This document shows positions 1 to 7,573 of a stretch of 17,988 nt of DNA, piece after piece. Origin of the DNA: Marinagarivorans sp. UBA5868 (GTDB lineage: Bacteria; Pseudomonadota; Gammaproteobacteria; Pseudomonadales; Cellvibrionaceae); contig DJFQ01000232.1 of NCBI GenBank assembly GCA_002432095.1, positions 1-17,988 on the forward strand, written 5' to 3'. The notes under the pieces are model-generated. The model saw only the letters and a program-made list of their open reading frames with translations. It searched no databases and was not told the DNA's origin. Positions within the stretch are counted from its first letter, which is position 1. Every line of letters begins with the position of its first letter. The translations under genes and the position numbers were made by a program.

Positions 1-21
1 TTTGTGTTTGGAACTGGACAT
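1..21 (-). CDS. Possible start of a minus-strand gene cut by the window edge
   Basis: On the minus strand an ATG (complement of 19-21) opens a frame reading MSSSKHK before the window ends. An AAAAAGG purine run lies 7 nt upstream, a well-placed ribosome binding site. Seven codons cannot identify a product. It lies on the same strand as, and about 170 bp downstream of, the small lipoprotein gene, so it may belong to the same transcript or be the next unit. The call rests only on the ribosome binding site and start codon. Confidence 0.35.
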
Positions 22-191
22 CGTAGAACCTTTTTATGTAATTCCGAGCGGTTCGGCGCCCGGTACGATTTGAACTTCCGCCAGCTGGGTGCGGCGAGCC
101 ATTCTAACGGAAGCTTTTGGAATAAAGGGCGGGTTTTTGTTCGATCCGGTCGCGAATCGTTCGCAAAGCAAGATGGGCTTCGCTTTTTTTG

Positions 192-599
192 CTACCAGCG
201 TTGCACCGTGTCGGGAAACCGCTGGCGATCCTCGTCGGTTGCTCGGTCTTTGCATTCGCCGCGCAACCGGCGGGTCGTTTCGCCAGCATAGCGTCCTAGC
301 AGCACATAACCGTCGCGACAGTATTGGGACTGTTCCATCACCTCGTCCAACATGCTTTGCATCTGTCGCGCGTTGGTTTCGGGGCGTTTTTTGGGCGGGC
401 GTTCGCTGCCCGTGGGTAATGTCATGGGTTGGGATTGCATGGGGAATGTGAGCTCGAACAATTTTAAACCGCCCTCCGTAATGCGGGTTTGCAGTTCGAG
501 CGCGCGGATATCCGCCTGTTTATGGGCGCAGCCAGCGGCTATACAGAGCACAATTAACAGCCAGCGTATGGGCGAATGGTGAATTGTCATGCGGCGCAA
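192..599 (-). CDS. Small hypothetical lipoprotein at the end of the iron/copper operon
   Basis: A protein of about 135 aa that I do not recognise. It has a short basic start, a hydrophobic stretch (WLLIVLCIAA) and a lipobox-like IAAGC with Cys24, so it is predicted to be exported and lipidated by Lgt/LspA. The mature part is hydrophilic, rich in Arg, Glu and Gln, and has two further cysteines in its second half (QYC and GEC). Start choice is uncertain: a TTG at 599 has GGGAG 4 nt upstream, whereas the ATG at 590 is 13 nt from it. Both keep the signal peptide. The gene starts 17 bp after the multicopper oxidase stop on the same strand, which implies cotranscription. An accessory role for the oxidase is inference from position only. 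Confidence 0.7.
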   Translation of the reverse strand: MRRMTIHHSPIRWLLIVLCIAAGCAHKQADIRALELQTRITEGGLKLFELTFPMQSQPMTLPTGSERPPKKRPETNARQMQSMLDEVMEQSQYCRDGYVLLGRYAGETTRRLRGECKDRATDEDRQRFPDTVQRW

Positions 600-616
600 G
601 GAACTCCCGAAGGTGA

Positions 617-1984
617 TTAGGTGACGCGAATATACCCCATCAGTCCCGTCTCCAGGTGTTCGATCACGTGGCAGTGGAACATCCAGTCGCCGGGGTTATC
701 CGCCACTATGGCGACCTCGGCGCGTTGATTTTTGCCCAGCAGAATCGTATCTGTGTGGTAAGGCTCCAGCATCTGTTGATTGACACTCAGAACGGTAAAA
801 GTGAAACCGTGGAGATGAATCGGGTGCGGGTGGGGAGTCGCGTTGTACAGCTCGAAGATATAGGTGCGCCCCATGCGCAGCGTTGCCAGCGGGTCCGGCA
901 GATGTTGGTGATTATGTTCGGCCCAGGCGCGCTTATTGATTGTCCAGAATACCGGATCTGCTTTGCCATCCTCTCCTACCGGTGATAGGGCGCCGGCCCA
1001 TTCAAAACTCAGCGGTATGCGCTCTGCATTGGCCAGATCCAGCGCCGGGACAGGATTGGGCGGCAAAGATGGCATTGGCAAAGGCGGCACTTGTCCGGGA
1101 ACGACTTCCAGTTCACACAGGCTGAAGGCAAACCGGCCTTTGCGGTCGAGGATCTGATAAACCCCCGGCGTTTGCGGCACCTGCAGCGCCAGATCCACTC
1201 GCATACCGGCACCGAGGGGATGGCTTTCCAGGGGTATTGGTCGAGGCAGTGGATTGCCCTCCACGGCGATGACCATCGCCGGCAGGTCCGCGCCTATGTT
1301 GAATACGCGGGTGTTATCCATGTTGGCGATGCGCAGACGTACCACACTGCCGGCTGTAAGCGTGAGTCGCTCGCTGGTTTTGCCGTTCACGGTTGGATGG
1401 TTGCCGAGGGTACCAGCACGGGCGGCGGCCCGGTGACTGGTGAAAGGGGCAAAGCTGCCATCGGCGTTCAGGTGCCAATCTTTGAGTGCCAAGCTGAGAT
1501 CCTGATGGAAAAAAACAGGATTCTCCTCTTCAACGATGAGCAAGCCCACCAGACCGCGACCAAGCTGTTCGAGGCTGTTGAAGTGGGGGTGGTACCAAAA
1601 AGTGCCGGCGTCCGGGCAGGTGAATTCATAAACGAATGCACCGCCCGGCGGGATAGGGTCCTGTGTCAGTCCCGGCACGCCATCGGCGGCGTTGTTCAAG
1701 CGGATGCCGTGCCAGTGGATGGTGGTTGGTTCCGGCAATTCATTGCGCACCAGAATGCGCACCGGGTGATTTTGCCGCAGGCGGAGCGTTGGCCCGGGAG
1801 ATGTGCCGTTGAAGGTCCACGCTGGAGTGCTGGTGCCGGGTATCAAAGAAATCGATTGTGGTTTGAGTATGAGTTCATATTCATAAGTACTGTGCCGTGG
1901 ACGAGTGGCGCATCCGCCAAGCGCAAGGCCGCCGAAAGTCAGCAGGGTTTGCAGGCAACGGCGCCGGGTTAAAGACATCAGCAT
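617..1984 (-). CDS. Tat-exported lipoprotein multicopper oxidase (laccase/CueO-like)
   Basis: 455 aa with the full copper-ligand set of three-domain multicopper oxidases: HWHG at 90-93, YHPH at 131-134, the HPIHLHG block with His387, His390 and His392, and HCHVIEH at 437-443. Cys438, His387 and His443 should hold the type 1 copper, and the other histidines the trinuclear centre. The position corresponding to the axial Met of CueO is Leu448, with Met449 after it. The N-terminus has a twin-arginine stretch (TRRRCLQ) and a lipobox ending LGGC at Cys25, so it is probably exported folded and membrane-anchored. Family members oxidise Cu(I), Fe(II) or phenols. The Fur-type operon promoter makes ferroxidase the favoured inference. 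No Met-rich copper insert was seen. ATGs at 1984 and 1978 are equally possible. It lies 67 bp after the DUF1513 gene. Confidence 0.93.
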   Translation of the reverse strand: MLMSLTRRRCLQTLLTFGGLALGGCATRPRHSTYEYELILKPQSISLIPGTSTPAWTFNGTSPGPTLRLRQNHPVRILVRNELPEPTTIHWHGIRLNNAADGVPGLTQDPIPPGGAFVYEFTCPDAGTFWYHPHFNSLEQLGRGLVGLLIVEEENPVFFHQDLSLALKDWHLNADGSFAPFTSHRAAARAGTLGNHPTVNGKTSERLTLTAGSVVRLRIANMDNTRVFNIGADLPAMVIAVEGNPLPRPIPLESHPLGAGMRVDLALQVPQTPGVYQILDRKGRFAFSLCELEVVPGQVPPLPMPSLPPNPVPALDLANAERIPLSFEWAGALSPVGEDGKADPVFWTINKRAWAEHNHQHLPDPLATLRMGRTYIFELYNATPHPHPIHLHGFTFTVLSVNQQMLEPYHTDTILLGKNQRAEVAIVADNPGDWMFHCHVIEHLETGLMGYIRVT

Positions 1985-2051
1985 AAAAAACCGCAGTTCA
2001 GAATCAGCAAGTTGATGGATGGCGCCACGCCCAAACCAGTGGGTCGCGTGC

Positions 2052-3155
2052 TCAAACGAGCGCCAGATGATTGTCCCAGTGCATTCCGGGGGTGTGGGTC
2101 GCCAGCTCCAAGTGGGGTTCGGGCGCGATCCGTAGATAGACCAGCTGACCCATTCCGTTGCTCACCATAAAGCTGTTTTCAGCAGAGACCCAGGCGGCGC
2201 CAGCAACATCGCGCACGGTGAAATGACCCATCAAACGATTGCCGGCGAGATCCCACAGGGAAATCAAGTTACCCCGCGGCGTGGTGCTGAGGGCCAAGCG
2301 CCCGTCCGCTGATAGTGCGACGCTGGCAATATATTGGTTCATCTGCCGCCAATCCTCTGACTGTGCCGGAAATTCTCGTAGCGCACGTCCCTGTTGGTGT
2401 TGAAACACCAGTGGATGGGGACGCGCTTCGATGCCCGATGTGTGGTCCTGAGCACCGACCACGACGAGTCCCGTAGCACTGACCGCCAAATGGCGCAGGC
2501 TGATCTGGTGGTGGGGTGGCATCACCTGGTCGACCAGTTCGCCGGACTGCGCCCGCAAATACGCCAAGCTCGGAGCCATAGTGTCCAGATTGAGCATTTC
2601 CCTCTGGGAATTCGGATGGGTGAGAATGCCGCCGTTGGCTACCACCAAAGTGTCGCCGCCGGGGAGTAATGCGAGTTGGTGAGGGTCCAGACCATGAGTA
2701 TTGAATTGGGTCAGCTTGCGAAACGGAGGGCGGGTTTCGTGAACCGCAACCACGCCCATGCGTCGGTTGTAAGCGTAGGTGGTGAGAAACAAAAACTGGC
2801 CATCCTCGCTGACGCAGCCATGTCCGCAAAAGTGCTCACCCTCGTCGGCGTTCAGCGTACCCATCAACTCGCCGTGGTGCATATCCACCACATAACACTC
2901 CCGGCCGGGGCGGCGGGCGAAGTAAATAGCCAATTGATCGTCGAGCACGCGCGCTTCGTGGGCGCGGTGAGGCACTGGCAGACAGTAGTTCAGATGTCCG
3001 TCGGCTCTTATCCCAAGCAGACAGTGTCCGCCTTGCTCGTCGTCCGCGGCGCTTAAAAACCGCGTGCTATCGGCGTTTAGCCGAGCGCCCACGGAAGCCA
3101 ATAAGCCTCCACCAAGCGTGGCCAAAACAAGGCGGCGACGAGTGACTGGCCTCAT
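2052..3155 (-). CDS. DUF1513 family protein with Tat signal, beta-propeller type
   Basis: 367 aa. It begins MRPVTRRRLVLATLGGG, a twin-arginine signal with hydrophobic core, so it is predicted to be periplasmic. The mature part has repeated propeller-like strands (for example GRECYVVDMHHGELMGTL, LALLPGGDTLVVANGG and ALSADGRLALSTTPRG), as in DUF1513 proteins. Conserved His-containing patches such as HGLDPHQ and MPPHHQ are visible. The family is found beside imelysin and di-haem oxidoreductase genes in Fur-regulated clusters of Pseudomonas and relatives; its biochemical role is not established. It starts 3 bp after the upstream imelysin-like gene, and its probable GGTGA ribosome binding site lies at the end of that gene, suggesting translational coupling. 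Confidence 0.88.
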   Translation of the reverse strand: MRPVTRRRLVLATLGGGLLASVGARLNADSTRFLSAADDEQGGHCLLGIRADGHLNYCLPVPHRAHEARVLDDQLAIYFARRPGRECYVVDMHHGELMGTLNADEGEHFCGHGCVSEDGQFLFLTTYAYNRRMGVVAVHETRPPFRKLTQFNTHGLDPHQLALLPGGDTLVVANGGILTHPNSQREMLNLDTMAPSLAYLRAQSGELVDQVMPPHHQISLRHLAVSATGLVVVGAQDHTSGIEARPHPLVFQHQQGRALREFPAQSEDWRQMNQYIASVALSADGRLALSTTPRGNLISLWDLAGNRLMGHFTVRDVAGAAWVSAENSFMVSNGMGQLVYLRIAPEPHLELATHTPGMHWDNHLALV

Positions 3156-3158
3156 AGA

Positions 3159-4238
3159 TCAGTCACCATCACTGGAATTAAACCCCAGTTGCAATTGCAA
3201 TTTGGCCGGCATTTCGCGTTTCAACAATGGCAGAAGTTGATCGAGGCTGTCCCAGGCGGCTTGAAACTGCGGCAGCGCGTCCGGCTGCTGTAAGTGGACG
3301 AAGAGCGGAGAGGGAAGCGGGGCGATTTTTTGGCGGCTGTCGGTGAAGGCTGCTTCTATCCGTCGGGCCAGTTCTTTGTGACCCCGCTCTATTAATGCCG
3401 GTTGAATGCCGGTGAGAAACAATTGCTCGCTCGCCGCCAGCTCCGCCTGCATCGCCTGGAGTGAAAGGCCGCTGCGCCAAAGTTCCAGGTGGTACGGGTT
3501 GACCCTCCCCGCACCAGGACGCCCGCCGAATGGTTCCCCCAGCTCCTTGTTCTTGAGCGTCTCGATACTCATAACCATGGCGCTGATCAATGCCGTCAAC
3601 ACGTCATCCTCTGCTGGGAATGCCAGATTCCCCGGCCCTGGAGCTAAAAACGTTTTCACATAGTTGCCGCCTTCTGGCGACCAGTCGTGTGCCAACCGTT
3701 CGGCAACCGTCTGAGTATTGGTCGCCGCCGCTTGTAAAAACAAGCACGTCCGCGGTTCGGCGAATCTTGCAGGCGATGCCTGACTGGGATCGAATAGGAG
3801 GTATTCGAGTGCCGAAAGTCCCTGCACCAGTACGTTGCTCTCCGCCAGAGTCGTCGCATCGATCGGCGTTTGCGCCGCCAATAGCGCTTCTACCTTTTGC
3901 CCCACCCGATTGTGAGTATCCGGCCAAAACTGTATTCGCCAGGCCTGATTGCCCTCCGTTACTGGACCGAAGTTCACCAGTTGTAGGGTTTGCCACGTCA
4001 TCATGGCTGCGCGCCAGGCATCACGGCTTTGCTCCAGGGAGGCGGAGTCGGAGGGGTTTTGGCAAAATCGTTCAAGACTCTTGCGTAGCTCTGCGGTGGA
4101 ACGCGAAAAATCCTGATGCCACGGCATGATCAGGTTATCTGCGGTATTCGTTAAGGCCTGTTCGAACGCGGAAGCCGTGGGTTTGGGCGTACAGGCGAAC
4201 AAGGTGGTGAGCAGCAGTAACATCAATCGAGTTGGCAT
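3159..4238 (-). CDS. Imelysin-like (M75 family) lipoprotein, second paralogue
   Basis: 359 aa. The signal peptide ends in TTLFAC (Cys16), a lipobox, so this is a predicted lipoprotein. The helical imelysin fold is suggested by the N-terminal four-helix pattern (SRDAWRAAMMTWQ) and by GLSALEYLLFD at 140-150, which occupies the place of the GxHxxE motif. The His is replaced by Ser142, while Glu145 is kept. This matches the second imelysin type commonly found with di-haem oxidoreductases. Proteins of this group are thought to bind or deliver iron rather than cleave peptides. The gene lies 14 bp after the di-haem oxidoreductase and 3 bp before DUF1513, within one operon. Membrane-side iron binding is inferred from family and context. 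Confidence 0.9.
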   Translation of the reverse strand: MPTRLMLLLLTTLFACTPKPTASAFEQALTNTADNLIMPWHQDFSRSTAELRKSLERFCQNPSDSASLEQSRDAWRAAMMTWQTLQLVNFGPVTEGNQAWRIQFWPDTHNRVGQKVEALLAAQTPIDATTLAESNVLVQGLSALEYLLFDPSQASPARFAEPRTCLFLQAAATNTQTVAERLAHDWSPEGGNYVKTFLAPGPGNLAFPAEDDVLTALISAMVMSIETLKNKELGEPFGGRPGAGRVNPYHLELWRSGLSLQAMQAELAASEQLFLTGIQPALIERGHKELARRIEAAFTDSRQKIAPLPSPLFVHLQQPDALPQFQAAWDSLDQLLPLLKREMPAKLQLQLGFNSSDGD

Positions 4239-4252
4239 GGATTACTTGGCCA

Positions 4253-5680
4253 TTAAAGTGAATTAAGAAATGCCAGCAGCGCTTCGCGCTTGTCGGCGGT
4301 CAGCTGGCGCACAGCCTGCTGGCTTGCATCGGCTTCACCACCGTGCCAAAGAATCGCTTCCAGCAGATTGCGGGCGCGCCCGTCGTGAAGAAAGAAAGTG
4401 TGACCGGTCACGGTTTCGGTCAGGCCGATCCCCCACAGCGGCGGTGTGCGCCATTCACTGCCACTGGCGAGAAATTCGCCGCGGCCGTCGTCGAGACCCG
4501 GACCCATGTCGTGCAGCAGTAGATCCGTGAATGGGTGAATCGTCTGCTGACTTAACCACTCGTGGAATGAATTGCCCGTGGTCCAGGTGGGGGTGTGGCA
4601 GGCGGCGCAGCCGGAATCGACAAATACATTCCAGCCGGCCTGTACCTTGGGGTCATCAATATTTCGTCGCACCGGCACCGCCAAGTTAGCCGTATAAAAA
4701 TCCACCTGCTCCTGGATTTGTGCCGCCAACTCGGGCGCCCCACCGCTGGATGCCTGGCAAGTTGCGGCCGAGACGGGGCAGTCCTCATCAGGGAGCAGTC
4801 TGGAAGTGATCCCCATATCATTGACGAAGGCGGCCGCGTTTTGCTGCGGCAGCGAAGGTTGACCGGCTTTCCAGCCAAACCGTCCCAAAACCGTCAGGCC
4901 CCCGCTAAGGTCCCAGACCCGGTTTGCGCGTCCCGAAATACCGTCGCCATCGGCGTCGTTCGGGTCTTCGCGCGCTACTATGTGGGCGGCATCCAGCGCT
5001 GCCAGGAGTCCCAGTCCGATCATTGGCGGAGCTACTCTTGCAGACAGTTGCACCTGCGGGTGCAGAGGTCCGTAGTTAGTGTCCAAGATAGTGAGTGTCG
5101 GCTGTCGCAGCATCACCTGCGCACCATCGGATAGGGTCACCGGCTGTTCCCGGTAGCTCACCTGGACGCGGCCCTCTGGTGCCAGATTGGTGACGGCAAA
5201 ATCCTGCAGTTGTAGCCCGTAGGTGGGTTCTGGAACATTGCCCAACCTGCGCAACAGCTCCTGATCTCGGCCATCCGAATCCGGCGGAATGCTAAGCCGC
5301 ACTAGCATCGAGACTCTATTGGCAAGTTCGGGCTCCGGAGGATGCCCGCGACCATCTTTAATGTGGCAGTTCTGGCAGGCGTTGGTATTGAGAAGCGGTC
5401 CCAAGCCGTCCCTCGCTGTGGTGGAGGATGGGGCTGTCACCCAAGGGTTGCGGAAGAAACTGTTGCCGACGCTAAAGTCGAGACGCCGTTGCAACGGCAT
5501 ATTGGCAGCAGGCAGAGAAAATGCGGAATGATGGTCGCTGCGGATACTGGTATCGCCGCCAAGCCTTTCGCCCGGCATCGGCGGTGCGGATGCTGCAGCC
5601 GTACTGCTCATCATCGCGAAGATGACGAGCAGTCGAAACACAAAGTTACCGTATTGGATGTTAGAAGCTGTGGTCTGCAT
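4253..5680 (-). CDS. Di-haem oxidoreductase (DHOR, formerly 'thiol oxidoreductase', COG3488-like)
   Basis: 475 aa from the ATG at 5680. A signal peptide (FVFRLLVIFAMMSSTAAASA) precedes two c-type haem sites, CQNCH at 102-106 and CAACH at 358-362, so it is predicted to be a periplasmic cytochrome-c peroxidase-like protein. The stretch RLDFSVGNSFFRNPW and the calcium-like DPNDADGDGISGR loop are typical of this family, as is HDGRARNLLEAILWHGGEA near the C-terminus. The start codon overlaps the 3' end of the imelysin gene by 20 bp, suggesting coupled translation. A TTG at 5692 would add 4 residues but has no better ribosome binding site. The family is placed with imelysins in iron-responsive clusters. 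A redox role in iron handling, analogous to the haem peroxidase EfeB, is inference. Confidence 0.92.
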   Translation of the reverse strand: MQTTASNIQYGNFVFRLLVIFAMMSSTAAASAPPMPGERLGGDTSIRSDHHSAFSLPAANMPLQRRLDFSVGNSFFRNPWVTAPSSTTARDGLGPLLNTNACQNCHIKDGRGHPPEPELANRVSMLVRLSIPPDSDGRDQELLRRLGNVPEPTYGLQLQDFAVTNLAPEGRVQVSYREQPVTLSDGAQVMLRQPTLTILDTNYGPLHPQVQLSARVAPPMIGLGLLAALDAAHIVAREDPNDADGDGISGRANRVWDLSGGLTVLGRFGWKAGQPSLPQQNAAAFVNDMGITSRLLPDEDCPVSAATCQASSGGAPELAAQIQEQVDFYTANLAVPVRRNIDDPKVQAGWNVFVDSGCAACHTPTWTTGNSFHEWLSQQTIHPFTDLLLHDMGPGLDDGRGEFLASGSEWRTPPLWGIGLTETVTGHTFFLHDGRARNLLEAILWHGGEADASQQAVRQLTADKREALLAFLNSL

Positions 5681-6908
5681 TGTCCGGCGCAAAGTGACTT
5701 ATGCCGAGCGTCTTGGCGATCTCTTCGATGACAGTGGTTTCCGCTACCAATGCCTGGATGCTGTTTTTAATGAGAGTGGCTCCAGCGCTATTGCCCTCGG
5801 CGATCATCTGGTCAAATTTCATGGATTTGGCGGGATCTTCCGCTGCGGCGACCATGGCGTGCAGCGCCGCTTCGGTATTGTCCAGTGCGGTTTCCATCCG
5901 CTGATGCAATGCGGGGTTTTTGGTCTTGATGAATTCCGCAAGGGATGTGCCTTTAACGAGTCCACCGTCAACCCGCGAGTATTGGCCGTTATAAACGTTG
6001 GCGATGCCTTTGGCGTTGTAATAGTGAGCGTTGTGGGTGTTATCACTGAAGCAATCCTGCTCGTCTTCGGTGGAGTTGGCCTCTAGGGCGACTTTCATAC
6101 GCTCGCCCGCAAGTTCGCCAAGTGCCAGGCTGCCCATGCCAAACAGCATAATCTTCAGCGCATTGTTAGGGTTTTGCAGTAGATCATTGCGATAACTGCC
6201 TTTGGGTGCCCAGATTCCCGCCATCTCTTCCAGGTCTTTCACCAAAAGATCGGTGGCCGCTTGAAGATAATCCCGGCGACGGTCGCAGTTGCCGTTCGTG
6301 CACTCTTTGCCGATGGCAAAATCTGTATAGGGTCGTTCTCCGGCGCCAGCGTTGGTGCCGTTCAAATCCTGACCCCAAAGCATAAATTCGATAGCGTGAT
6401 AACCGGTGGCAACGTTGACCTCGGACCCTCCCAACTCATTCAGGTCCACCAATAGTTCTGGGGTGATGGAAGTCAGCGGCAAGGCGGTGGTGCCAAGCTT
6501 CAGTTCTTTGTTCGCAACCACATTCGCGGTCGCCGCAATATTGCCCATTTCATGATGATAATTCTTGGCAACATAGTCGATCATGCCTTCGTCCAGCGGC
6601 CAGGCGTTTACCTGCCCCTCCCACTCGTCGACCGGCGGATTGCCGAAGCGGAAGACTTCACTTTGAGTGTAGGGGATGCGGGCGGTGATCCAGGCAATAC
6701 GGGCCTTGTCCAAACTTTCGGAGCTTGGATTGGCCAACAGTTGCTGGATTTCCTTTTGCAGGTTTTTGGCCTGGAGCAGAGCATCGTCAAAAGTGGCGTA
6801 CGCAATGTCCGCATATGTTTTGGCCACATCGCTGGCACTAACGGCTGCTTGAGCTGGCCCCGCTGCTAGCAAGCCAGCCAGGACCAGGGAGGAATAAATG
6901 GTTTTCAC
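5661..6908 (-). CDS. Imelysin / IrpA-like iron-regulated periplasmic protein (M75)
   Basis: 415 aa. The chosen start is a GTG (complement of 6906-6908) with GAGG 7 nt upstream. It gives a clean signal peptide, MKTIYSSLVLAGLLAAGPAQA, cut near residue 21. The upstream in-frame extension lacks a ribosome binding site. The imelysin motif GYHAIE at 169-174 (His171, Glu174) is intact, followed by FMLWGQDLN, which is strongly conserved in IrpA-type proteins. There are four Cys, two of them in KECTNGNCDRRR. The family is periplasmic or membrane-associated, iron-regulated and related to the M75 domain of EfeO; proteolysis is doubted for most members. As first gene of the operon it sits 62 bp from a Fur-box match, so iron repression is expected. 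Confidence 0.93.
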   Translation of the reverse strand: MKTIYSSLVLAGLLAAGPAQAAVSASDVAKTYADIAYATFDDALLQAKNLQKEIQQLLANPSSESLDKARIAWITARIPYTQSEVFRFGNPPVDEWEGQVNAWPLDEGMIDYVAKNYHHEMGNIAATANVVANKELKLGTTALPLTSITPELLVDLNELGGSEVNVATGYHAIEFMLWGQDLNGTNAGAGERPYTDFAIGKECTNGNCDRRRDYLQAATDLLVKDLEEMAGIWAPKGSYRNDLLQNPNNALKIMLFGMGSLALGELAGERMKVALEANSTEDEQDCFSDNTHNAHYYNAKGIANVYNGQYSRVDGGLVKGTSLAEFIKTKNPALHQRMETALDNTEAALHAMVAAAEDPAKSMKFDQMIAEGNSAGATLIKNSIQALVAETTVIEEIAKTLGISHFAPDNADHSF

Positions 6909-6956
6909 AATGAGACCTCGTTGCAGTGAATTGCATGGAGATTCGAACGGGCTCGC

Positions 6957-6985
6957 ACAATAATACAAATAATAATTGTTATCAA
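6957..6985 (-). promoter_or_regulatory. Sigma-70 promoter of the imelysin/multicopper oxidase operon
   Basis: On the minus strand TTGATA (complement of 6980-6985, 5/6 to TTGACA) is followed after exactly 17 bp by TATTGT (complement of 6957-6962, 4/6 to TATAAT). It reads towards the imelysin gene, whose start is about 48 bp below the -10. The Fur box covers the -35 and part of the spacer. The region is strongly AT-rich compared with its surroundings. Confidence 0.6.
6970..6984 (-). promoter_or_regulatory. Fur box (predicted)
   Basis: Read on the minus strand the site is TGATAACAATTATTA. It matches 12 of the 14 defined bases of the 7-1-7 Fur motif TGATAAT-N-ATTATCA. It overlaps the -35 element and spacer of the predicted imelysin operon promoter, the usual position for iron-dependent repression. 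Iron-regulated imelysins support the reading. Confidence 0.8.
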
Positions 6986-7000
6986 TTGTGTGTGGCGCAA

Positions 7001-7037
7001 CTGCTAATCGAGCAACTAACAGCTGCTAATCGAACAA
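7001..7037. repeat. Two 15-bp direct repeats upstream of the iron operon promoter
   Basis: CTGCTAATCGAGCAA at 7001-7015 recurs as CTGCTAATCGAACAA at 7023-7037, one mismatch, 22 bp apart start to start (two helical turns). A partial third element, GAGCAACTA, occurs at 7010-7018 and again at 7051-7059. They lie just upstream of the predicted promoter and downstream of yhbY. Spacing by two helical turns suits an activator or repressor site, but duplication slippage is equally possible. Confidence 0.55.
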
Positions 7038-7094
7038 GTCGTCAGCGCGTGAGCAACTAGTTGTGCGTGCCGAGCCTTGGAAAGAGGTTCATGG

Positions 7095-7394
7095 TCAACG
7101 GATATTCGAGGTGGATAACTTGGGTTTGCGTGCGGCGCGAAACACCAGTACGACCTTGCCAATGGTTTGTACAATTTCTGCTCCGGTCTGTTCGCAAAGA
7201 TCGGTGACAACTTGTTTGCGCTCTTCGCGGTCCTCCATCGCCAACTTCACCTTGATTAGCTCGTGGTCGTCCAGTGCTCGCTGAAGTTCGGCGATGACTC
7301 CTTCGCTAAGTCCTTTGCCGGCGACAGTGACCACGGGCTTCAGTCCATGACCTATAGTGCGGTAACGCTTTTTGGTATCGGTGTCTAAACTCAT
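7095..7394 (-). CDS. yhbY: YhbY family RNA-binding protein (CRS1/YhbY domain)
   Basis: 99 aa, basic and very close in length and pattern to E. coli YhbY. It shows LKPVVTVAGKGLSEGVIAEL, the glycine-rich loop of the CRM fold, then HELIKVKLAMEDREER and a C-terminal IGKVVLVFRAARKPK. The family binds pre-50S ribosomal particles. The start at 7394 (MSLDTDTKKRYR) matches the known E. coli N-terminus better than the ATG at 7412, which would add six residues. It is transcribed divergently from rlmE, the arrangement seen in E. coli. The C-terminal tail STSNIR is short and poorly conserved. No convincing terminator was found after it. Confidence 0.93.
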   Translation of the reverse strand: MSLDTDTKKRYRTIGHGLKPVVTVAGKGLSEGVIAELQRALDDHELIKVKLAMEDREERKQVVTDLCEQTGAEIVQTIGKVVLVFRAARKPKLSTSNIR

Positions 7395-7573
7395 AAAACT
7401 GCCTTTGTTCATAGCTACAGCCTATCGGCTGTTCTTAGGGATTCAACTTCACTTTTCCCGCGTAGATGCAATAATACCCGGCCTGCTGAACCCGGCAGCG
7501 CCTCACGACGGCGAATTCGGCTGAAGTGCGGGCATATTGTAGCGACTCACCCTCTCGCGAGCTCAAGGTTTTT

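Follow-up and report, generated by a model that had tools for sequence, protein, structure and literature searches.

The six-gene locus

The window, that is, the whole 17,988-nucleotide stretch of DNA analysed here, carries six genes on the minus strand between positions 192 and 6908. As the sequence-only reading had described, they follow one another with tiny gaps or overlaps (junctions of -32, 14, 3, 67 and 17 bases). The features of the locus, in the direction of transcription, are:

6957..6985, minus strand: sigma70-like promoter site, TTGATA / 17 nt / TATTGT (promoter scan of positions 1-7560)
6965..6983, minus strand: Fur-like box GATAACAATTATTATTTGT, lying over the promoter-like site (agrees with the consensus at 13 of 19 positions)
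5661..6908, minus strand: imelysin A, ICMP type, GxHxxE, GTG start (Pfam, motif, match to 7xrx)
4253..5692, minus strand: DHOR/DUF1111 di-haem oxidoreductase, two CxxCH motifs (PF06537, E 2e-91)
3159..4238, minus strand: imelysin B, IPPA type, GxxxxE, lipoprotein-like signal (Pfam, motif, match to 3pf0)
2052..3155, minus strand: DUF1513 protein, twin-arginine signal, predicted seven-bladed propeller (Pfam, predicted model)
617..1984, minus strand: three-domain multicopper oxidase (MCO), twin-arginine and lipobox signal (Pfam, complete copper-ligand motifs)
192..599, minus strand: small lipoprotein, two invariant Cys in addition to that of the lipobox (comparison of relatives)

Pfam searches of the six open reading frames matched M75 imelysin twice (E 6e-87 and 1e-50), DHOR, DUF1513 (E 9e-87) and multicopper oxidase, and gave no match for the sixth frame (192..599). 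Imelysin A has the GxHxxE motif of the ICMP family as GYHAIE at residue 169, and its closest solved structure is 7xrx (479.7 bits, E 6e-143), named as an insulin-cleaving metalloproteinase outer membrane protein. Imelysin B has the IPPA-type GxxxxE motif as GLSALE at residue 140 and matches 3pf0 (E 2e-21). The only Pfam matches of DHOR are PF06537 and cytochrome c, and at E≤0.01 no solved relative was found by sequence. All six products carry export signals, as had been proposed, when their translations are read by eye and not with a predictor: Sec-like in imelysin A and DHOR, a lipobox in imelysin B and the small protein, a twin-arginine signal in DUF1513 and a twin-arginine signal together with the lipobox LGGC in the MCO.

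Relation to known iron operons

In kind, the locus matches the published ICMP/imelysin iron-starvation operons, such as PA4370-4373 of P. aeruginosa, VC1264-1266 and their alphaproteobacterial counterparts. Its imelysin-DHOR-imelysin-DUF1513 core had rightly been called known, being that of PA4370-4373. The window and the ICMP-type operons share a GxHxxE imelysin, DHOR/DUF1111, a GxxxxE imelysin and the lack of EfeU; the Fur regulation of the published operon is only predicted for the window, and the MCO and the small lipoprotein are additions in the window. According to PMC3143127 (Xu 2011), PA4370-4373 is Fur-regulated and the absence of EfeU is expected in such operons; in its Thermofluor assays, neither ferric ions nor haem were bound specifically by two imelysin-like proteins. 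The main text of that paper nowhere uses the words multicopper, ferroxidase or DUF1513. VC1264 (irpA) and VC1265 are tabulated in a study of V. cholerae iron regulators (PMC7600106), and in R. sphaeroides the DHOR gene group is probably cotranscribed with hemP-irpA-bfd-bfr (PMC4618611). In the portion of the open-access literature (PMC) covered, no account of imelysin, DUF1513 and a multicopper oxidase in combination was found.

Like the window, EfeUOB/M systems combine imelysin (M75) domains with a haem-dependent redox protein. However, the haem protein of the window is DHOR/DUF1111 and not a DyP peroxidase, the family to which EfeB belongs according to PMC3577903, and for a copper protein the window has an entire three-domain oxidase. 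Membership in EfeUOB is ruled out by three defining features (FTR1, cupredoxin-M75 and the DyP EfeB), so that the earlier term "EfeOB-like" survives as an analogy only. No cupredoxin is fused to M75, as Pfam shows M75 alone in both imelysins; an M75-only EfeM does occur in EfeUOB/M systems (PMC9174327). No FTR1 gene is linked to the cluster, in agreement with the earlier statement that the window holds no EfeU-type permease. FTR1 was matched in 7 of the 23 genomes tested, on the contig of the cluster in none of these 7; in the window's genome the single match, on another contig, is weak and partial, as is that in G001.

A multicopper oxidase tied to the core

What is new at the locus is one MCO subfamily that is tied to the core in two bacterial classes and two slots. 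In the first slot the MCO gene follows directly upon DUF1513 on the same strand, as do 11 of the 12 MCO genes in the window's family, the exception being that of G018. In the second it separates the first imelysin gene from that of the oxidoreductase, the arrangement of all high-scoring matches in the relatives of Azospirillum (26/26) and Microvirga (7/7). Among 144 genomes of the window's family, an MCO (E≤1e-40) occurs in 12 and DUF1513 in 26, and all 12 MCO genomes have DUF1513 (Fisher p 9e-11). In 82 genomes of the Azospirillum order, the 26 MCO matches of 351-401 bits are all on the same strand as DUF1513 and 2.6-2.9 kb before it, whereas the other 26 (≤322 bits) are all unlinked; likewise, in 199 genomes of the Microvirga family 6 low-scoring MCOs are unlinked. 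The oxidase is in place in all three genomes of the window's genus, where its absence or separation in close relatives would have counted against the extended module.

In a tree of 70 of 96 MCO sequences (24 near-copies picked by eye, the split frame L025 and L089 were omitted), all 25 linked rows fall in one 34-row group with support of 100/100, and the other 36 rows are unlinked. L089, whose DUF1513 is 4-5 kb away on the opposite strand, was counted as neither linked nor unlinked. The nine unlinked rows within the group are seven from alpha- and betaproteobacteria, G055 and G018; near the listed unlinked members no iron genes were noticed by eye from the protein starts, several of the contigs being short. 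The G055 MCO, preceded by a cytochrome c gene, is 48% identical to that of the window. Its start resembles 6VOW by eye. In a second, quick tree without bootstrap, from which 14 further sequences were omitted, 20 of the 32 low-scoring unlinked alphaproteobacterial MCOs (14/26 and 6/6) were added; all fell outside the linked group, and for these 20 membership in the same subfamily is rejected. His 385 and Trp 354 are shared by the 25 linked MCOs compared, whereas most unlinked ones lack them.

The core does not depend on the oxidase. A linked MCO is lacking in 15 of the 26 DUF1513 genomes of the window's family and in 16 of the 42 of the Azospirillum order, counts on which G019 and G569 bear, as their MCO slot falls beyond the contig; the MCO is therefore dispensable to the core. 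The many cores without it, along with the unlinked members of its own group, could mean that only chance or shared regulation makes the MCO a neighbor, and that it has no mechanism in common with the core. However, linkage of the subfamily is nearly complete over two slots, two classes and three samples, and at least five gains or losses of the MCO are forced on the core tree (48 loci with a long match to both genes; 15 named loci omitted as near-copies, duplicates, frame-split or incomplete), which makes a mere neighbor highly improbable.

Regulation of the locus

The Fur-box promoter of the sequence-only reading stands in part: a Fur-like box does lie over a promoter-like site, but the box is weak and, in the window alone, marginal. 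Its score is equalled or bettered in 13 of 200 shuffles (p 0.05 in a second test), and of 54 stretches of the window, 4 reach it as well. The promoter-like site is the sole sigma70-like match on the minus strand in positions 1-7560, a scan that is at chance overall (4 found, 3.8 expected). Over 26 gammaproteobacterial loci, Fur-like sites are enriched ahead of the first imelysin and not ahead of the MCO: imelysin A is preceded by such a site at p<0.05 in 11 of them (combined p 3e-7) and by none at that level in the other 15, while upstream of the MCO such sites were found in 0 of 10 loci.

Possible substrates of the oxidase

The copper-site motifs of the MCO (HWH, HxH, HPxHxH, HCHxxxH) are complete, as HWHG, WYHPH, HPIHLHG and HCHVIEHLETGL. 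In the window's family it is probably membrane-anchored, judged from its twin-arginine and lipobox signal, and the alphaproteobacterial enzymes are probably soluble periplasmic proteins. An oxidase of this kind may serve the operon by acting on Cu(I) or on a phenolic or catecholate compound such as a siderophore, and not on Fe(II), thereby protecting against copper or processing a ligand; we regard this as possible, if somewhat unlikely. The solved MCOs closest to that of the window are 6vox (E 9e-124) and 6vow (E 1e-121), and two papers call the latter, from Pseudomonas thermotolerans, a laccase or multi-copper oxidase; this would suit a phenolic substrate or Cu(I), as would weak similarity to the CopA and CueO models. 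Unlike the P. thermotolerans enzyme, the window MCO sits in an imelysin operon. Against such substrates, it scores far under the curated cut-offs of both copper-resistance families (143.7 against 525 bits for CueO, 159.5 against 478.95 bits for CopA), which excludes it from either, no further copper gene lies within the six, and the scan of positions 1-7560 gave no promoter-like site before the MCO.

A siderophore-type substrate draws on LbtU-type siderophore porin genes, which pass the cut-off in 4 of 144 family genomes, all directly before imelysin A, and take the same place in G053. However, no match was found in the window's genus. In the class sample, where 71 of 369 genomes pass the cut-off, 2 of 30 LbtU loci with about 1.5 kb of flank match an imelysin, in one case weakly, and the porin as a general partner is thus partly rejected. 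A ZnuA-type ABC transporter gene after DUF1513 was also set aside as a partner, being seen at L047 only among the loci compared.

DUF1513 and a possible redox assembly

Five His are invariant in DUF1513, and each falls within an innermost strand of the predicted seven-bladed propeller, which in the model suggests a metal site. By a wider proposal, tentative and in our view unlikely, DUF1513 would be no passive propeller but a metal protein (with copper, iron or haem) that is exported folded by the Tat route, with His of five of its seven blades lining the central channel in a way comparable to the nitrous oxide reductase copper site, and would join DHOR, the MCO and the two imelysins in one periplasmic redox assembly that oxidizes and traffics iron, with O2 as oxidant if the cluster has the MCO and a different one if it does not. 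If true, a family of "unknown function" would gain a testable role.

The five His and the twin-arginine signal of DUF1513, as well as the placement of DHOR in the known core, where an imelysin lies on either side of it, would also fit maturation, in which the MCO and DHOR oxidize residues or a metal centre of the imelysins or DUF1513 and do not serve to oxidize iron. Di-haem enzymes of the MauG/MbnH type, which modify a partner protein, offer an analogy. However, many cores have DUF1513 and DHOR but lack the MCO, and no partner modification is known from our analysis; such a role for the two enzymes appears improbable.

Proposed role of the locus

With a probability of about one half, the locus is an iron-acquisition operon with a dedicated O2-using putative ferroxidase, the MCO, beside the di-haem oxidoreductase. 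The linkage of the MCO, its trees, the Fur-like sites across relatives and the published iron context of the core speak for this reading; against it stand the laccase-like nearest solved relative, the cores that lack a linked MCO, the unlinked members of the MCO group, the marginal Fur-like box of the window and the negative Thermofluor result. The copper oxidase of the cluster suggests that iron uptake here may involve oxidation of the metal by oxygen on the outer side of the inner membrane. Under iron scarcity the six proteins would be made and exported together. The MCO would oxidize Fe(II) with O2, four electrons reducing it to water, and DHOR, perhaps using peroxide, could carry out a redox step that parallels or complements this one. 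The product would be bound and passed on by the imelysins, DUF1513 might be a carrier of a metal centre or a docking hub, and the permease that finally imports the iron would be encoded elsewhere in the genome.

An MCO coupled to iron uptake would have broad counterparts in Fet3p-Ftr1p of yeast and PcoA of P. aeruginosa, the P. aeruginosa MCO being a ferroxidase needed for iron uptake according to a review (PMC7922089). In contrast to these, the window MCO has no linked permease and is linked to imelysins. Imelysin operons are Fur-linked. The tie of the MCO to them in two classes and two slots points to oxidation chemistry as central to the job of the operon, and it offers a direct assay with Fe(II) and O2, with and without imelysin.

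The small lipoprotein

The extended module of the sequence-only reading joined the MCO and the small lipoprotein to the core. Extension by the MCO is recurrent (11, 26 and 7 genomes of the three samples), but the small lipoprotein is no general part: all three genomes of the window's genus carry it, but it was found nowhere among the remaining family clusters with an MCO that were examined, a genus restriction by which it is rejected as a core part. Its model (pLDDT 73.7) gave no match in a fold search at E≤0.001, and none of its 33 database homologues has a Pfam domain. It probably stays linked within its own group, since nine contigs listed for these homologues apparently recur among the DUF1513 or DHOR matches.

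Organization of the gene cluster

The sequence-only reading proposed a six-gene operon on one strand, and this was confirmed, with successive gaps of -32, 14, 3, 67 and 17 bases between the genes. An export-type signal is seen by eye at the start of all six products.

Genes of the operon, in transcription order
6908-5661, minus strand, imelysin A
5692-4253, minus strand, di-haem oxidoreductase (DHOR)
4238-3159, minus strand, imelysin B
3155-2052, minus strand, DUF1513 protein
1984-617, minus strand, multicopper oxidase (MCO)
599-192, minus strand, small lipoprotein

The window, 17,988 bases long, is the whole of contig G000:C25 in a 263-contig genome of 4.2 Mb, and yhbY is the same-strand gene preceding the operon. 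In the Fur-regulated operon PA4370-4373, as described by Xu et al. 2011 (PMC3143127), one imelysin is of the ICMP type with GxHxxE, another of the IPPA type with GxxxxE, and a DUF1111-type protein is encoded as well; the same paper reports EfeU to be absent from operons of this type. Like these, the products in the window carry GYHAIE, two CxxCH motifs and GLSALE; the nearest solved structures of its imelysins are 7xrx and 3pf0. A Rhodobacter sphaeroides iron study includes related alphaproteobacterial genes (PMC4618611). The core of the operon is thus already known, and the MCO is the new part. The earlier interpretation holds in that an oxidase extends the iron operon, but was too broad in counting in the small lipoprotein and in its "EfeOB-like" label.

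Another imelysin, the third in the window's genome, begins like a lipoprotein (L003 1279-2457, on G000:C95), with no DHOR evident beside it within the 3.7 kb examined. In the genus-mate G001 (L025 and L117), DHOR, DUF1513 and MCO are each matched in two pieces, which may be sequencing error.

Linkage of the oxidase to the core

Among the best 80 of 507 relatives kept from a scan of genome contigs, all six genes are also found in two genus-mates of the window. Unexpectedly, an MCO also lies inside the core in Azospirillum, Microvirga, Faunimonas, a Parvibaculaceae and a Rhodospirillales MAG. The gene in these alphaproteobacteria is placed between imelysin A and DHOR, not 3' of DUF1513. The two slots suggest that the MCO and the core are paired in at least two arrangements.

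In the window's family (144 genomes), MCO was found in 12 genomes (E<=1e-40) and DUF1513 in 26, including all 12 with MCO. Eleven of the 12 MCO genes come immediately after DUF1513 in the same orientation, the matched regions being 20-338 bases apart; the copy in G018 is 244-246 kb from DUF1513. In the Azospirillum order (82 genomes), where DUF1513 is above cut-off in 42, there are 52 MCO matches in 48 genomes: 26, scoring 351-401 bits, are found 2.6-2.9 kb before DUF1513, and the remaining 26 score at most 322 bits and are all located elsewhere. The 199 genomes of the Microvirga family give 13 MCO matches at E<=1e-60, seven of at least 588 bits, all 2.4-2.5 kb before DUF1513, and six of at most 269 bits, none at that place. 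Across a class-wide sample, MCO was detected in 8 of 369 genomes (E<=1e-40), the window's included. MCO and core are on different contigs in G055, where a cytochrome c gene precedes the MCO relative outside the cluster (L123 133-1050).

In a tree of 70 rows from the 96 MCO sequences available, all 25 linked MCOs fall in one 34-row group (support 100/100) together with nine unlinked relatives, and the remaining 36 rows are all unlinked. Of the MCOs in the class-wide sample, those of G118, G150, G270, G410 and G417 are outside this group; that of G144 has no placement. A second, quick tree added 20 unlinked matches from the two alphaproteobacterial samples (14 of 26 in the Azospirillum order, 6 of 6 in the Microvirga family), all of which were outside the linked group; here the nine gammaproteobacterial linked rows form a group (93%) that is separate from G055 and G018. 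When imelysin A and DHOR from 48 loci are placed in a tree, cores with and without an MCO are intermixed in both classes, with seven changes in MCO presence, at least five of them forced by well-supported branches. Repeated gains of the MCO and a single gain in each class with later losses fit these data equally well.

Features of the linked oxidases

The window's MCO has complete copper-ligand motifs and scores far below the CueO and CopA family cut-offs. All 25 linked MCOs, from both classes, share three residues that are found in few unlinked rows: His385, which lies two positions ahead of a copper ligand (6 of 61 unlinked), Trp354 (8 of 61) and Asp223 (9 of 61). The motif HCHxxxHxxxxx ends in Leu in the three gammaproteobacterial linked copies that could be read through it (those of the window, G024 and G002), and in Met in the linked copies of alphaproteobacteria; Leu at this position goes with higher-potential copper. 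By eye, a twin-arginine signal and lipobox-like Cys begin the MCO at 9 of 10 loci in the window's family, counting the unusual LPHC of G511, the start at the tenth (L156) being unread; no lipobox was seen in 11 of 12 alphaproteobacterial starts.

Fur-like sites

The sole minus-strand promoter-like site found within 1-7560 is at 6985-6957, in a scan at chance level overall, and is overlapped by a Fur-like box that is marginal alone. The 200 bases before imelysin A were compared over 26 gammaproteobacterial loci, each against a first-order null built from its own upstream sequence. Eleven have a Fur-like site at p<0.05, with a combined p of 3e-7, although the loci are related and hence not independent. 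At the same threshold, sites were found before DHOR in 2 of 25 loci, before DUF1513 in 0 of 26 and before MCO in 0 of 10. Since a gap of ~300 bases lies upstream of MCO in G011 and G511, a separate MCO promoter is possible there.

A possible metal site in DUF1513

Five His (66, 112, 159, 222 and 363) are invariant over 69 DUF1513 sequences, seven of them alphaproteobacterial. The AlphaFold2 model (pLDDT 93.4) is a propeller by structure comparison, and its strand pattern was assigned to seven blades with innermost strands at 65-70, 107-115, 158-163, 218-225, 278-281, 317-323 and 361-367. All five His, from five blades, are within these strands (47 of 337 residues; hypergeometric 4e-5, or 2e-4 drawing from the protein's own 23 His), the assignment having been made with model and conservation already known. 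Together with the twin-arginine signal, this placement in the predicted model suggests that DUF1513, a family of unknown function, may hold a metal or haem site.

Neighbouring genes

Among the clusters examined, relatives of the small lipoprotein are recognisable in the window's genus only, and outside it the MCO is followed by unrelated genes or no clear genes. In both genus-mates an AmpG-family-like MFS permease gene lies 3' of the small lipoprotein (L024 9982-11343, L025 9968-11323); the match is below the family cut-off, the L025 copy was judged by eye, and the window's contig stops short of that place. An LbtU-family siderophore porin gene directly precedes imelysin A in G511, G018, G429, G430 and G053 (L153 3182-4306, with similar genes at L118, L161, L162 and L116), the family being assigned by model for G511 and for the four members of the window's family. 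LbtU has no match in the window's genus and is common across the class, mostly without an adjoining imelysin (30 loci fetched). Alone among the compared loci in having a ZnuA gene, Microvirga lenta (L047 12658-16816) has a CtaG-like gene and a ZnuA/ABC-3 metal transporter after the cluster on the same strand.
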